Shown here piece after piece: positions 4,017 to 50,412 of a stretch of DNA of 64,000 bases (the stretch's first letter is position 1; every line of letters begins with the position of its first letter). The notes under the pieces are model-generated. The model was not told the origin of the DNA. It saw only the letters and a list, made by a program, of their open reading frames with translations, and did not search any database. The position numbers were made by a program, and so were the translations under genes. The DNA is from Methylophaga sp. OBS3 (lineage in GTDB: Bacteria; Pseudomonadota; Gammaproteobacteria; Nitrosococcales; Methylophagaceae), in NCBI RefSeq assembly GCF_026319325.1, contig NZ_JAPDMU010000003.1:186001-250000 (forward strand). Reading direction: 5' to 3'.

Positions 4017-4785
4017 AGTGAAAGACCTGCAGGTCGACGTTGATAATAAAACGCTCATTAGCAACATCCACTTTTCAGTTCGAGCGGGTGAGCATTTGTG
4101 TATTACGGGGCCAAATGGTGCGGGTAAAAGCACACTGCTTAGAACACTAAACGGTATGATGCCAGTGAGTAAGGGTGAGATATCGCTTCAACAACAACCA
4201 CTCAAACACTACTCACAAAAACATATTGCCCAACAGATAAGTTATGTCTCTCAATCAGGTGGGCATGCCCTGCCCTTTATTGTCGACGACTTTTTAAAAA
4301 TGGCCCGTTATCCACATCAACATTGGCTTGGTAGTTGGCGTGCTGAAGATCAGACTGCTATTGACCGCGCTTTGGATATCACTGAATGCCAAGGCTTTAA
4401 ATATCGCCAAATGACAACATTAAGTGGTGGTGAATGCCAAAAAGTCATGATTGCCGCAGCTTTAGCACAAGACACCCCCATCATTTTGTTGGACGAGCCA
4501 ACCAACTCTTTAGATCCACATCATCAGACTGCAGTTCAGTCATTGATAAGAACATTACACGTTGATTACGGCAAAACCATCATTGAAGTAAGCCATGATA
4601 TTAACCATGCCAGCCAGCATACAGATACGGTTTTGGCGCTTAAAGATGGTCAATTATTATGGACAGGTCCGGCAGAGCAGTTCCTTGATGCCAAGCGCTT
4701 ACAAGACTTATATCAGCAGGATTTTGTGTTTGTCCCGCATCCCCAAACTGGTCGTAATATTGCCCTGACGGCACAACACTCATGA
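4006..4785 (+). CDS. ABC transporter ATP-binding protein, FecE/BtuD class
   Basis: This 259-residue ATPase energises the importer encoded by its neighbours. The Walker A motif is GPNGAGKSTLL (about residues 36-46), the signature LSGGECQ carries an unusual Cys after the Glu, Walker B is IILLDEPTNSLD and the switch His is in VSHDINH. The start codon lies inside the binding-protein gene and the stop overlaps the permease start (ATGA), so all three are coupled. The FecE/BtuD/HmuV subfamily is clear; the substrate follows from the partner genes. Confidence 0.87.
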   Translation: MLIEVKDLQVDVDNKTLISNIHFSVRAGEHLCITGPNGAGKSTLLRTLNGMMPVSKGEISLQQQPLKHYSQKHIAQQISYVSQSGGHALPFIVDDFLKMARYPHQHWLGSWRAEDQTAIDRALDITECQGFKYRQMTTLSGGECQKVMIAAALAQDTPIILLDEPTNSLDPHHQTAVQSLIRTLHVDYGKTIIEVSHDINHASQHTDTVLALKDGQLLWTGPAEQFLDAKRLQDLYQQDFVFVPHPQTGRNIALTAQHS

Positions 4786-12925: not shown

Positions 12926-14951
12926 TCCACCTAATAATGTGCTAATTGTGTGGCTGATTATTGCGTTGGCTATCGGCGCTATTCCACACCTGGTTTACCA
13001 ACCTCTGTGGGTAACAGGTTTATTTGTGTTAATGATGGGCTGGCGACTTATGCATCACTGGCGGCAGTGGCCATTACCCGCAGATAAACCTGTTTTAAAA
13101 TGGCTACATAGTCTTGGGGCAGTGTTTACCATTGTCTTGCTGGTTGCCGACTATGGCATGACCATTGGTCGAGATGCCGGTGTCGCATTATTGACCATTA
13201 TGCTCGCGTTTAAAGTTGTCGAAATTAATAACCGACGTGACTTTTATCTCGCTTGTTTCCTAGGTTACTTTTTTGTCACCACCAACTTCTTCTATACCCA
13301 AAACATGTTGATTTTGCTGTTGATGGTATTGGTGGTTGTCCTGCTAACTGCCTCTCTTATCCACATTAATAGTCCAACACTCCCCCACAAAACAAGACTC
13401 AAACTCGCAGGTAGTATCTTGCTGCAAGCCCTGCCAGTGATGGTTGTTTTGTTTATTCTGTTTCCACGTATTCCTGGGCCAATATGGGGGTTACCTGAAG
13501 ACGCAAACGCAGGCAGCGAGCAATTGCCTGATGGCATGACACTGGGTGATAGCAGTATTAACAGAGGCCGTGGTTCAACTGGCATGTCAGATGAGCTGTT
13601 AATGGGCCGCATCAGTGATGTGATTCAATCTGACGCTATCGCTTTTCGTGTTGAGTTTGAAAATGATGAATATCCTCCGAATAACGAACGTTATTGGCGA
13701 GGCCCTGTTTTGTGGACGACGGATGGCAGCAGTTGGCAGCCTTTATCTCAATATCGTATTGATAGAAGTTCGGCCAATATTGCTGTTGCCGGACAAGCTT
13801 ATCAATACACCATGACGCTCGAGGCTCATAATCGAAATTGGTTATTTGCCCTTGATATGCCGGTCAGTCAGCAATCTGATATGCGAACCAAACTGTCTGC
13901 TGATGGGCTATTAACCAGCGAAAATAAATTACGTAGCCGCAGTCAAATCACTATGACATCACATACTGCGTATCGCTTTAATGCTGAAGAAGAGCCATTA
14001 TTGGATGCCGCATTACAACTTCCTAAAAACCAACACCCCCGCACCAAGCAATTGGCAAATGAACTTCGTGATGCCAGTGCTGACGATGCTGATTATGTGC
14101 AAAGCGTTTTAAGCTATTTTCGCGAACAGCCTTTTTACTACACATTACAACCGCCGCTATTATCAGGTGATGTTGTTGACCAGTTTTTATTTGAGTCACG
14201 CGAAGGTTTTTGCGAACATTATGCAGCCAGCTTTACTGTGCTAATGCGGGCTGCAGGCATACCAGCGAGAATCGTAACCGGCTATCAAGGTGGTGAAATC
14301 AATCCCGTTGATAATGTCATGGTGATTCGCCAACGCGAAGCCCACGCATGGTCTGAAGTATGGCTGCCAGAGCAAGGCTGGCTCAGGGTCGATCCCACTG
14401 CTGCCGTATCCCCAAATCGAGTAGAAATGGGTATTGCAGATCTCTTACCTTCATCACGAAATGCACCCGCGATTCTCGGTGGCAATACCAGCCTTTTAGA
14501 CCTGTGGCGAGATGTGAAAAATAACTGGGAGGCACTCAATAATGCTTGGGATATGTGGGTAGTTGGCTATGGGCCCGCACTACAAAAAGCGGTATTAAGT
14601 TTATTTGGTATGCAGCAACCCAATTGGCAAAAAATGGCGCTGTGGTTAGCGATTGCTATCGCCATTTTATTTAGCTTAATTGCGCTATTGATGCTCTGGC
14701 AAAAACCCATCGCCGATCCCGTCCAACGCTCTTATCAACAGTTTTGCCGTAAACTTGCCAAACAAGGTGTAGTGCGAGAACGCCATGAAGGGCCGAGTGA
14801 TTTTGCGCAGCGTGCAGTGAAACAACTCCCCACTCAGGAACATGAAATTCTAAAAATTAGCGAATACTACCGGCGACTTCGTTATGCCGATGACACTGCA
14901 TTAAAAACAACGTTTGTCGATGCCGTAAAACATTTTTCAGCAAAACGTTAA
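12912..14951 (+). CDS. TgpA-type membrane transglutaminase-like protein (DUF3488)
   Basis: This 679-residue protein starts with a DUF3488 block of several transmembrane helices (residues 1-190). An extracytoplasmic region holds a transglutaminase-like core with a cysteine-protease triad: Cys434 in REGFCEHYAA, His478 in REAHAWSEVW and Asp494 in RVDPTAA. One more transmembrane helix (about 575-600) and a cytosolic DUF4129-like tail follow. Pseudomonas TgpA is an essential protein of this type. Its substrate, probably an envelope protein or peptide, is unknown. All triad residues are present, so an active enzyme is likely. Confidence 0.88.
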   Translation: MNNNNPPNNVLIVWLIIALAIGAIPHLVYQPLWVTGLFVLMMGWRLMHHWRQWPLPADKPVLKWLHSLGAVFTIVLLVADYGMTIGRDAGVALLTIMLAFKVVEINNRRDFYLACFLGYFFVTTNFFYTQNMLILLLMVLVVVLLTASLIHINSPTLPHKTRLKLAGSILLQALPVMVVLFILFPRIPGPIWGLPEDANAGSEQLPDGMTLGDSSINRGRGSTGMSDELLMGRISDVIQSDAIAFRVEFENDEYPPNNERYWRGPVLWTTDGSSWQPLSQYRIDRSSANIAVAGQAYQYTMTLEAHNRNWLFALDMPVSQQSDMRTKLSADGLLTSENKLRSRSQITMTSHTAYRFNAEEEPLLDAALQLPKNQHPRTKQLANELRDASADDADYVQSVLSYFREQPFYYTLQPPLLSGDVVDQFLFESREGFCEHYAASFTVLMRAAGIPARIVTGYQGGEINPVDNVMVIRQREAHAWSEVWLPEQGWLRVDPTAAVSPNRVEMGIADLLPSSRNAPAILGGNTSLLDLWRDVKNNWEALNNAWDMWVVGYGPALQKAVLSLFGMQQPNWQKMALWLAIAIAILFSLIALLMLWQKPIADPVQRSYQQFCRKLAKQGVVRERHEGPSDFAQRAVKQLPTQEHEILKISEYYRRLRYADDTALKTTFVDAVKHFSAKR

Positions 14952-47634: not shown

Positions 47635-48894
47635 ATGCGAGATTTTACCCCCGCTGATAGCTGCGCAATGCCAGAAAAGCCCTCTGTTTTAAGGGTAGAA
47701 GCAGCACGTCAAAAAATTCTCGAACAGTTGGACAGTGTGCAAAACATCCACATGCAACCACTTCGCGATGCATTGGACAGAGTGCTCGCCGAAGACGTTA
47801 TTTCGCCATTTAATGTGCCCCAACACCCCAACTCTGCAATGGACGGATATGCGCTGGCACATAAGGATTTAGCATCACACAACAATACCCTTACATGTGT
47901 GGGGACAGCTTTTGCAGGTAGTCCATTCACGGGTTCGCTCAGCGCTGGTCAATGTGTGCGAATTATGACCGGTGCAATGATGCCGTCTGATTGCGATACT
48001 GTAATCATGCAAGAGCAAGCCAGCGTTGATGACCAAGAGATCAATTTTGCTGGAGAACACCAACTAGGCCAAAACGTCCGGTTGGCAGGTGAAGATATTC
48101 AACAAGGCCAAGCAGTTTTAGCTGCCGGTCGACGTATTAATGCTGCTGATTTGGGCTTGCTGGCGTCATTAGGTATTGGAGAACTCAAAGTCCGTCGTAA
48201 ACTCCGTGTTGCATTTTTTTCAACAGGTGACGAACTCAAATCCATTGGCGAAACCTTAACGCCTGGCGATATCTACGATAGTAATCGCTATACCCTGTTT
48301 GGCATGTTGCAAAAGTTAGGTGTTGATATGCTGGATATGGGGGTTGTTAAAGACAGCCCCGATGCCTTACGACTCGCTTTAGAGTCTGCCGCTGCGAATG
48401 CCGATATTGTGATTACCTCAGGAGGTGTTTCTGTTGGTGATGCCGACTATATAAAACCACTTCTCGCTGAACTTGGTGAAGTTAACTTTTGGAAAATCGC
48501 CATGAAACCTGGCCGACCATTAACCTTTGGTCACATCCAAAACACACCTTTTTTTGGTCTGCCGGGTAACCCAGTCTCAGTTATGGTGACTTTTTACCAA
48601 TTTGTACTGCCAGCGTTATTAAAAATGGCCGGCAACAGTGCACACAAACCACTTATCTTACCGGCTGTAGCCGCCGCCCCTATTCGAAAACGTTCTGGAC
48701 GCTTTGAGTTTCAACGGGGTGTGATGGAAAGTCAGCCAGATGGCTCACTAACGGTTCGTATGACTGGTGAACAAGGCTCGGGCATTTTAAGCTCTATGAG
48801 CCACGCTAATTGTTTTATTTTGTTGGATGAGGACTGTGAAGGTATTCAAGCCGGCGAACATGTCTCAATCCAACCTTTTGCAGGTCTTATCTGA
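47635..48894 (+). CDS. moeA: Molybdopterin molybdenumtransferase MoeA
   Basis: This protein of about 419 residues inserts molybdate into molybdopterin-AMP. Domains are in MoeA order: N-terminal linker, [13 protein letters not shown] block, the MogA-like domain with [22 protein letters not shown] (in two parts) and [13 protein letters not shown], and a C-terminal beta domain from about 345. The ATG at 47635 is chosen; a TTG at 47602 would overlap mobAB. The stop overlaps the ttcA start (TGATG). Confidence 0.92.
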
Positions 48895-49757
48895 TGTCAG
48901 AAGCACAAGCCAAACAACATTTTGAGTTTAATAAATTACGTAAACGTCTGCGTCGTCAGGTCGGTCAGGCGATTGCTGATTACGACATGATTCAAGATGG
49001 TGACAAAGTGATGGTCTGTCTATCTGGTGGTAAAGATAGTTACACCATGTTAGATATCCTGCTTAATTTACGTGATCACGCGCCGATTAACTTTGAGCTA
49101 ATTGCGGTCAACCTTGATCAAAAACAACCTGGTTTTCCAGAGCATGTTTTACCAGAGTATTTGTCTTCTATTGGCGTGCCTTATCACATCATCGAGAAAG
49201 ACACTTACAGCATCGTTAAAGAGGTTGTGCCTGAGGGTAAAACCACTTGCGGTATTTGCTCTCGTCTACGTCGGGGTAGCTTATATGGTTACGCCAGACA
49301 AAATGGTATTACCAAGATTGCCTTAGGCCATCATCGTGATGACATTATCGAAACGTTATTCCTGAATATGTTTTATGGCAGCAAAATTAAAGCCATGCCA
49401 CCAAAACTATTAAGCGACGACAAAACCAATATTGTCATTCGCCCATTGGCTTACGCCAAAGAAGCCGATATTGAGCGTTATGCTGAAGCCAGACAATTCC
49501 CAATCATTCCATGTAACTTGTGTGGCTCACAGCAGAATCTACAACGCCAAGTGATCAAAGACATGCTTCAAGCATGGGAAAAACAATCACCAGGCCGACT
49601 CGAGAATATCTTCCGTAGTTTACAAAATGTTGCGCCTTCTCAACTTGCTGACAATGAGTTGTTTGACTTTAAAAATCTTGAGCAACAACGTGTTATGCCA
49701 ACAGGTGAAGAAGACGAAGCCTATGACGATCAAATTTTCCCAGCTTTGGCACGCTAA
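48894..49757 (+). CDS. ttcA: tRNA 2-thiocytidine synthetase TtcA
   Basis: This 287-residue PP-loop enzyme adds sulfur to C32 of tRNA. The PP-loop is [16 protein letters not shown]. The iron-sulfur ligands lie in [12 protein letters not shown] and [10 protein letters not shown], matching the 4Fe-4S type. The ATG overlaps moeA's TGA, so it is probably the last gene of the mobAB-moeA-ttcA operon, an accident of location rather than a shared pathway. Confidence 0.94.
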
Positions 49758-50025
49758 TTGATAACAATCACGAAAACTTATTCACGTTTTTATGCATATG
49801 TTACAGCGACTTTACAGAAGTACGCGCTAAGTCATTGATCTATGAATTTTAACGATAACATATTGATTTTAAATAAAATTTAAAAATGATTAATTTTTAA
49901 CCAATTTGTAATCGTATGTTAAGAATTAACCACTTAGCGATTTTCACATACATTAACCACAGACTTATCCACAGAAAATGTGAGTAAGTCGCTAAGCTGT
50001 TGATTCGATCATTTAAACTACTGAA
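49758..50025. other. AT-rich convergent gap with DnaA-box-like repeats
   Basis: No gene is seen. Both flanking genes end here, so no promoter is needed, yet the gap is 268 bp. The left half, 49850-49912, is very AT-rich. Nine-base sites resembling the DnaA box (TTATCCACA) all point the same way: TTATTCACG 49778, TTAACCAAT 49897, TTAACCACT 49926, TTAACCACA 49953 and exact TTATCCACA 49965. The last two belong to a tandem 12-bp repeat (49953-49964, 49965-49976). Confidence 0.55.
49933..49996. repeat. Long imperfect inverted repeat enclosing the tandem DnaA-box-like repeats
   Basis: CTTAGCGA (49933-49940) pairs with TCGCTAAG (49989-49996), and inside it TCACAT (49944-49949) pairs with ATGTGA (49978-49983). 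The 28-nt loop is filled by the two 12-bp repeats. It could be a protein-binding site, a replication-related element or simply a terminator, though no T-run follows. Confidence 0.5.
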
Positions 50026-50412
50026 TTACATGCTTTGAGGCGTGAAATCTTCAGAAAACTCCAAGGCATTACCATCAGGGTCACGGCAGAAAAAAGCGGC
50101 ACGTCCAGACTTACTTCGTGAATATGGCATACCCACTTTGTCAAAGTTTGCAGCGAGCTTTTCTAAGTCTTCCACAACCAAAGCGACATGACGATCACGT
50201 CCACCATGTTCTGGACGACCTTCGGCACTATCAGGGTTTGGTAACACCATTAAGTGGATTTGTTGGCCTGCACCTAAATCTAACCAAGCGCCATCAAAAG
50301 GAAACTGGGGACGACTCATATTCTGTTTGATTTGTAAGACATTGCAGTAAAAGTCGAGAGACTTTTCCAAATCTGCAACCAAAAAGGTCGCATGCGCAAT
50401 TGATTTAATCAT
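50026..50412 (-). CDS. VOC (glyoxalase/dioxygenase-fold) protein
   Basis: This 128-residue single-domain VOC protein has the typical two beta-alpha-beta-beta-beta modules. It opens HATFLVADLEKSLDFYCNVL with a metal-type His, and ends with FCRDPDGNALEF, where the Glu is the usual last metal ligand. Another His is in RDRHVALVVEDL. The layout suggests a metal-binding enzyme such as a lactoylglutathione-lyase-like or dioxygenase member; the substrate is unknown. Confidence 0.85.
   Translation of the reverse strand: MIKSIAHATFLVADLEKSLDFYCNVLQIKQNMSRPQFPFDGAWLDLGAGQQIHLMVLPNPDSAEGRPEHGGRDRHVALVVEDLEKLAANFDKVGMPYSRSKSGRAAFFCRDPDGNALEFSEDFTPQSM

Follow-up and report, generated by a model that had tools for sequence, protein, structure and literature searches.

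A candidate DARS-type DnaA-binding element with a fixed three-box core and phased Fis and IHF consensus sites in Methylophaga

The 268-bp intergenic gap at positions 49758-50025 of the window (the whole 64-kb stretch of DNA analysed here) raised the question of what kind of DnaA-binding site lies between two genes of Methylophaga. As the initial annotation stated, the two genes are convergent: ttcA is on the plus strand (48894-49757; TtcA scored above the NCBIfam cut-off), and a glyoxalase/VOC-like gene is on the minus strand (50026-50412; NCBIfam match below the cut-off only). The AT content of the gap was 71%, and the AT-rich tract that had been reported near the boxes was located at 49840-49915 (84% AT), where it enclosed a Fis site and a distal IHF site. 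The recount on the plus strand gave the same five like-oriented sites within two mismatches of TTATCCACA, at 49778, 49790, 49926, 49953 and 49965, with one exact site, and the best two (49953 and 49965) formed the 12-bp tandem already described. Five such sites were reached in 0.08% of the 268-bp windows in the 64 kb, and more than five in none. The window overall was not enriched, with 20 sites within one mismatch of TTATCCACA against 18.2 expected. The exact TTATCCACA at 4308 cited in the initial annotation was found too, but the count of two was too low: a further copy lies at 13357, which brings the exact occurrences in the window to three (4308, 13357 and 49965).

A sixth DnaA-box site, overlooked in the initial annotation, was found at 49979-49987 in the opposite direction (TTACTCACA on the minus strand), and this third box of the arrangement, TGTGAGTAA, faces the tandem pair. 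The inverted third box is the defining feature of the element. Read on the minus strand, the core at 49953-49987 consisted of box I, TTACTCACA (49979-49987), the 5-bp spacer TTTTC (49974-49978), which is the same as in the E. coli core at 2969135, box II, TGTGGATAA (49965-49973; the exact TTATCCACA on the plus strand), the 3-bp spacer GTC (49962-49964), and box III, TGTGGTTAA (49953-49961; TTAACCACA on the plus strand), with box I opposed to boxes II and III. Allowing five mismatches over 21 fixed positions, this three-box arrangement was unique to this spot in the 64 kb, and it is no chance cluster. With one deviation from TTWTNCACA, box I may be a weak site.

The accessory sites were located with the IHF and Fis consensus sequences given in excerpts of PMC8682772 and PMC4585315. 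An exact IHF consensus, TAAGCTGTTGATT, lay beside box I (49993-50005, plus strand), and on the other side of the core a Fis-consensus palindrome, GATTAATTTTTAACC (49888-49902), started 50 bp past box III and was followed by a second exact IHF consensus, TAACATATTGATT (49856-49868, plus strand), 84 bp past box III. The IHF sites flanked the core, and none lay between the boxes. The exact IHF consensus occurred 17 times in the whole 64 kb, an average of about 0.07 per 268 bp, and the gap contained two (49856 and 49993). The Fis site by itself was unremarkable, since about 0.4 strict Fis matches are expected in 268 bp; it is the fixed position of this site that is remarkable.

Conservation of the gap in relatives had been named as a check in the initial annotation, and the repeats proved to be kept throughout the genus, the core element being matched in all 24 Methylophaga genomes. 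Two syntenic sites were recognized, ttcA-glyoxalase and clpA-cobO, the second copy of the window's genome lying between clpA and cobO. Among the loci fetched, a ttcA-site copy was present in 23 of 24 genomes (absent from G011, which is 68% complete) and a clpA-site copy also in 23 of 24 (absent from G023). The flanking genes were checked by tblastn, with two loci (L014 and L035) cut by contig ends, and in this search four loci from three genomes gave no cobO match alongside. Some genomes, such as G007, G009 and G014, carried two copies at a single site, two cores were 401 bp apart on DELT01000063.1 (Methylophaga sp. UBA2689, 43,153 bp), and further sites with the same core were represented by loci L117, L118, L122, L124, L126, L127, L129 and L130. 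At the third Methylophaga site of L124 (1694-2083), three copies were spaced about 184 bp apart, with TGTGGATAA as box III and an altered box II; similar arrays were also seen in G004, G020 and G021.

The genus copies were stacked ungapped on the core, 27 for each site. Those of the ttcA site came from 22 of 24 loci, L014 and L035 being excluded as truncated by contig ends, and those of the clpA site from all 24 loci, 26 of these copies being distinct. The relaxed Fis consensus GNNYRN5YRNNC started at +50 in 23 of 27 ttcA-site and 25 of 27 clpA-site copies (48 of 54 in total), while other offsets had means of 0.03 and 0.01, respectively. Beside box I, 13 of the 27 ttcA-site copies had an exact IHF consensus and 24 had it with at most one mismatch, as against none of the 27 clpA-site copies at that tolerance. 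At +84 the IHF consensus was exact in 11/27 ttcA-site and 4/27 clpA-site copies, and within one mismatch in 18/27 and 12/27. Mean conservation was 1.92-2.00 bits for boxes I and II (1.92-1.94 for box I over the 54 genus copies, and 2.00 for box II over the 54 aligned copies, most of its bases having been fixed by the search pattern), 1.69-1.85 bits for box III and 1.49-1.52 bits for the Fis site, against 0.46-0.98 bits for the spacing sequence farther out. The 17 bases adjoining box III reached 1.44-1.47 bits. In the window, 49937-49952, between box III and the left arm of the inverted repeat described below, is conserved to the level of a binding site at both genus sites; its sequence differs between the ttcA and clpA sites.

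The copies at the two sites also bear on the inverted repeat. The paired arms pointed out in the initial annotation, CTTAGCGA (49933-49940) and TCGCTAAG (49989-49996), were present. Both overlap IHF-like sequence: the right arm runs into the exact IHF consensus beside box I, and the left arm into a weak IHF-like site with one mismatch (49924-49936, minus strand). The inverted repeat is not a conserved hairpin. In the window copy, 49920-50010 was predicted to form a long hairpin (RNA fold z = -6.7 on the plus and -4.1 on the minus strand), and this strong predicted fold between a convergent gene pair is what an RNA element or a terminator shared by both genes would give. However, the search for a terminator-like site found none, the four Rfam matches were microRNA models far below their cut-offs, and the clpA-site copies lost the fold (three copies, four foldings, with z of -2.3, -0.3, -0.3 and -1.6) while keeping the boxes and the Fis site, all of which makes an RNA or terminator function highly improbable.

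DnaA boxes adjoining an AT-rich tract would also be expected of a replication origin or its relic. The likely origin was searched for in two complete genomes, G005 (3,106,976 bp) and G007, each sampled as 20 stretches of 20 kb. The GC skew changed sign at about 1.4-1.55 Mb in G005 and at 0.16-0.31 Mb in G007, the cumulative GC-skew minimum in a contiguous 410 kb of G005 was at 1,426,232, and dif was located at 2,958,282 (G005) and 1,989,194 (G007). Between folA and priA (the latter named from its translation), three exact copies of TTATCCACA form an intergenic cluster that starts at 1,438,734 in G005. This cluster lies 12.5 kb away from the skew minimum, which is near recF, and is the only place in the 410 kb with at least three boxes within 300 bp; its boxes (3734-3776 of L152, G005:C1:1435001-1440000) are adjoined by an AT-rich stretch. 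Three exact TTATCCACA were also present at folA-priA in G007 and in the window's genome, where the boxes lay at 1511-1587 of L170 (G000:C4:254735-257949), that is, at C4:256235, the window being on contig C6. The folA-priA region was matched in 9 of 9 genomes searched, and judged from these sequence features it is likely the oriC of Methylophaga.

Two other placements of oriC were rejected. The 20 kb around mnmG (gidA) in G005 held scattered single boxes and no cluster, and no box cluster was seen in the 16 kb around dnaA-dnaN (L006, G000:C4:352000-368000), where no TTATCCACA box within one mismatch lay near dnaA and two scattered matches were found in all. The dnaA gene of E. coli is autoregulated via a DnaA box; since no box was found near dnaA here, this gene may lack such autoregulation.

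Of the checks suggested in the initial annotation, GC skew placed the origin far from the element in both G005 and G007. The core element of the ttcA site, at 783,059 in G005, was 656 kb from the likely oriC in that genome and 874 kb in G007 (arm fractions of 0.41 and 0.52), and it lay neither at the skew minimum nor roughly opposite dif. With the skew minimum, dif and the folA-priA cluster all putting oriC elsewhere, an origin or its relic at the ttcA site is the least probable of the alternatives and hardly tenable. The clpA copy was located on the other arm, at an arm fraction of 0.79 in G005 and 0.78 in G007. In G002, unlike in G005 and G007, the distances from the inferred oriC were about 1.25 Mb and 0.47 Mb, and dif was not found in this genome. 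As to the constant chromosomal position that is a hallmark of DARS2, G005 and G007 gave a rough fit and G002 departed from it, so chromosomal position was not counted as evidence of identity.

A site away from oriC with opposed boxes recalls the DARS elements of E. coli. According to the portions of PMC5742627 and PMC8682772 drawn on here, DARS1 and DARS2 have a three-box core of equal spacing in which box I faces the opposite way to the other two. In MG1655 the DARS1 core at 813107 read TTATCCACT-ATTCC-TGTGGATAA-CCA-TGTGTATTA, and a core at 2969135 read TTATTCACC-TTTTC-TGTGGATAG-AGT-TGTGAAGAA, with a second candidate core at 2969451 in the same region; the spacers were 5 and 3 bp in all three. 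The core at 2969135 was taken as the probable core of DARS2, since it is followed by a pair of IHF-like sites with 3 bp between them and then by a Fis site, as in the minimal DARS2 described in the part of PMC4245941 used here.

The ttcA-site element shared with DARS1 and DARS2 the opposed three-box core, its spacing, and a non-coding location away from oriC. With DARS2 (rppH-mutH region) it had in common the box orientation, the 5- and 3-bp spacers, the TTTTC spacer, and, past box III, consensus sites for Fis and IHF. The order of these sites differed: E. coli DARS2 is arranged as core-IHF-IHF-Fis (IHF at +58 and +74, Fis at +110), whereas Methylophaga has core-Fis-IHF (+50 and +84), so that adjoining IHF and Fis sites were found but the E. 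coli core-IBS1-2-FBS2-3 order and spacing were not. The Methylophaga ttcA site further adds IHF beside box I, the neighbouring genes are other ones, and Methylophaga carries at least two copies of one architecture per genome. With DARS1 (bioD-uvrB) the core spacing, the orientation and an identical box II, TGTGGATAA, were shared; no strict Fis or IHF consensus was found in the region scanned at DARS1.

The same core was found well outside the genus. Allowing one mismatch, 60 of the 63 genomes of the order matched the core pattern; the exact pattern was present in 179 of 369 genomes of the class sample (139 of 271 genera), the remaining 190 having no exact core match; the reversed control gave 0 in the order and the control gave 0 in the class. 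When both spacers were freed (48 combinations), 181 genomes were found among the matches listed, against 179 with fixed spacers, and truly other geometries made up about six rows of those matches by eye, excluding overlapping re-readings of standard sites. Freeing the spacers thus added almost nothing, which points to a fixed 5- and 3-bp spacing over the 369 sampled genomes. A scan of named genomes gave at least 118 loci, 80 by title, including Pseudomonas, Nitrosomonas, Woeseiaceae, Legionella, Lysobacter and Citrobacter; a few named matches, such as Paenibacillus, may be due to chance or contamination. That these class-wide matches are misread origins was rejected, since none of the 118 listed loci (up to 8 kb each) matched the Methylophaga queries for origin-type genes (dnaA, dnaN, rnpA, yidC, mnmE, mnmG and folA) at E 1e-8.

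The accessory sites were phased in these distant copies too. Among the 122 cores of the matches listed, the relaxed Fis consensus lay at +51 in 42 and at +50 in 11, the next-best offset having 3, and an exact IHF consensus lay at +84 to +87 in 19 of the 122 cores of the named matches listed. These cores yielded 117 distinct flanks once duplicates and cores too close to an end had been removed, chosen without Fis selection and nearly all from outside Methylophaga, and the profile of these flanks from the matches listed had G at +51, C at +65 and an AT-rich centre. G-N13-C at +50/51 was present in 87 of the 117, against 8.7 expected at random offsets, and in the 87 rows the IHF core motif TCAA-N4-TT appeared near +86, some 36 bp beyond the palindrome start. 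Fis at +50/51 was also seen in 8 of 10 cores from the order search and 10 of 20 from the class search, loci that may overlap the named set.

Convergent placement was rejected as a general rule, since placement was mixed across the 122 cores of the matches listed: heuristic ORF calls placed 16 between convergent, 33 between divergent and 42 between codirectional ORFs, while 15 fell within an ORF and 16 at an edge. Some unusual arrays were observed. In a genome of the same family, one strand of a contig carried at least six cores within about 17 kb (G025:C16:11157-28370), and in several of these box III ends in TGTT. At G265:C62:64822-64858 and G144:C16:2909-2945, opposite-strand cores overlap and share boxes I and II, making a symmetric array with box III on each side.

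A site that titrates or inactivates DnaA, such as datA or the box clusters of B. subtilis, would act in the other direction and lower active DnaA by holding it or by IHF-aided ATP hydrolysis. Clustered boxes with an adjoining exact IHF consensus in non-coding DNA, which datA also has, and several copies per genome are compatible with such a role. In datA, IHF lies between the essential boxes, whereas in Methylophaga IHF flanks the core and box I is inverted. The essential boxes of datA all share one direction (from the text seen of PMC5742627), so with box I opposed the element is not datA-like; moreover, plain titration does not need the invariant 5- and 3-bp spacers of the 369 sampled genomes, and the Fis position is fixed as well. 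A titrating or inactivating site is therefore unlikely, though less so than an origin or an RNA element. From the earlier reading, a DnaA-binding control site is retained, the replication origin is abandoned, and a datA-type site fits poorly.

Regeneration of ATP-DnaA by a DARS-type site is the reading we prefer for the ttcA-site element, with a probability of roughly three in four, given the core geometry, the genus-wide conservation, the fixed Fis and IHF positions, the partner genes and the location of the origin elsewhere. Fis was encoded in 4 of 4 genomes searched, with 49-54% identity to E. coli Fis, and in the window's genome it scored above the profile cut-off. The IhfA and IhfB genes were present. 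In 9 of 9 genomes there was another DnaA-like protein, about 240 aa long; a fragment of it in the window's genome had Hda as its best match, below the full-length cut-off. In E. coli, head-to-head ADP-DnaA on boxes I and II releases ADP (passages of PMC5742627 and PMC8682772), and DARS2 requires IHF and Fis, 5-bp shifts of whose sites impair it (passages of PMC8682772, PMC5742627 and PMC4245941). DARS2 carried on a plasmid is reported to cause additional initiations (PMC4245941). In Methylophaga, ADP-DnaA would bind the three boxes on this non-coding DNA platform, DnaA on box I would contact DnaA on box II head-to-head so that ADP is released, and DnaA would then rebind ATP, so that more ATP-DnaA competent for initiation becomes available. 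Together, Fis at +50 and IHF at +84 and next to box I would bend the DNA and time the activity, as at E. coli DARS2, and the same cycle would run at the ttcA and clpA sites, with the Fis/IHF order changed and the spacing fixed. The binding of DnaA, Fis and IHF, the nucleotide exchange and the timing are all inferred from sequence. Transcription through DARS impairs its function in E. coli, as stated in the part of PMC5010248 used, and a convergent gap fits this, as its promoter-like sites were no more frequent than in shuffles, placement elsewhere being mixed.

The presence of DARS outside E. coli is not itself new, since DARS-like sequences are conserved in many proteobacteria according to the portion of a review consulted (PMC10380432), and the accessory sites of DARS2 have been described as conserved in E. 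coli-like species in the material seen. Among the papers listed, none on DARS, or on a DnaA box, was found for Methylophaga. Within the partial texts covered, which did not extend to the primary 2009 paper (PMC2685538), no description was found of the fixed core-Fis-IHF order, the repeated Methylophaga sites or the class-wide spacing.

DARS was worked out in E. coli. The finding yields a signature usable in sequence searches and, at folA-priA, a candidate oriC of Methylophaga. Distant lineages with phased Fis and IHF sites offer natural variation on which contacts trigger the release of ADP from DnaA, and bear on why the box spacing is invariant and on replication timing with several copies at other chromosomal positions. 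The chances seem to us evenly balanced that a DARS module of core, Fis (+50/51) and IHF (about +86) is the common ATP-DnaA-regenerating form in beta- and gammaproteobacteria, present in at least two copies per genome in most Methylophaga, with the order of E. coli DARS2 as a derived exception. If this is true, Fis and IHF control of DnaA recharging would be class-wide, beyond E. coli and its near relatives.
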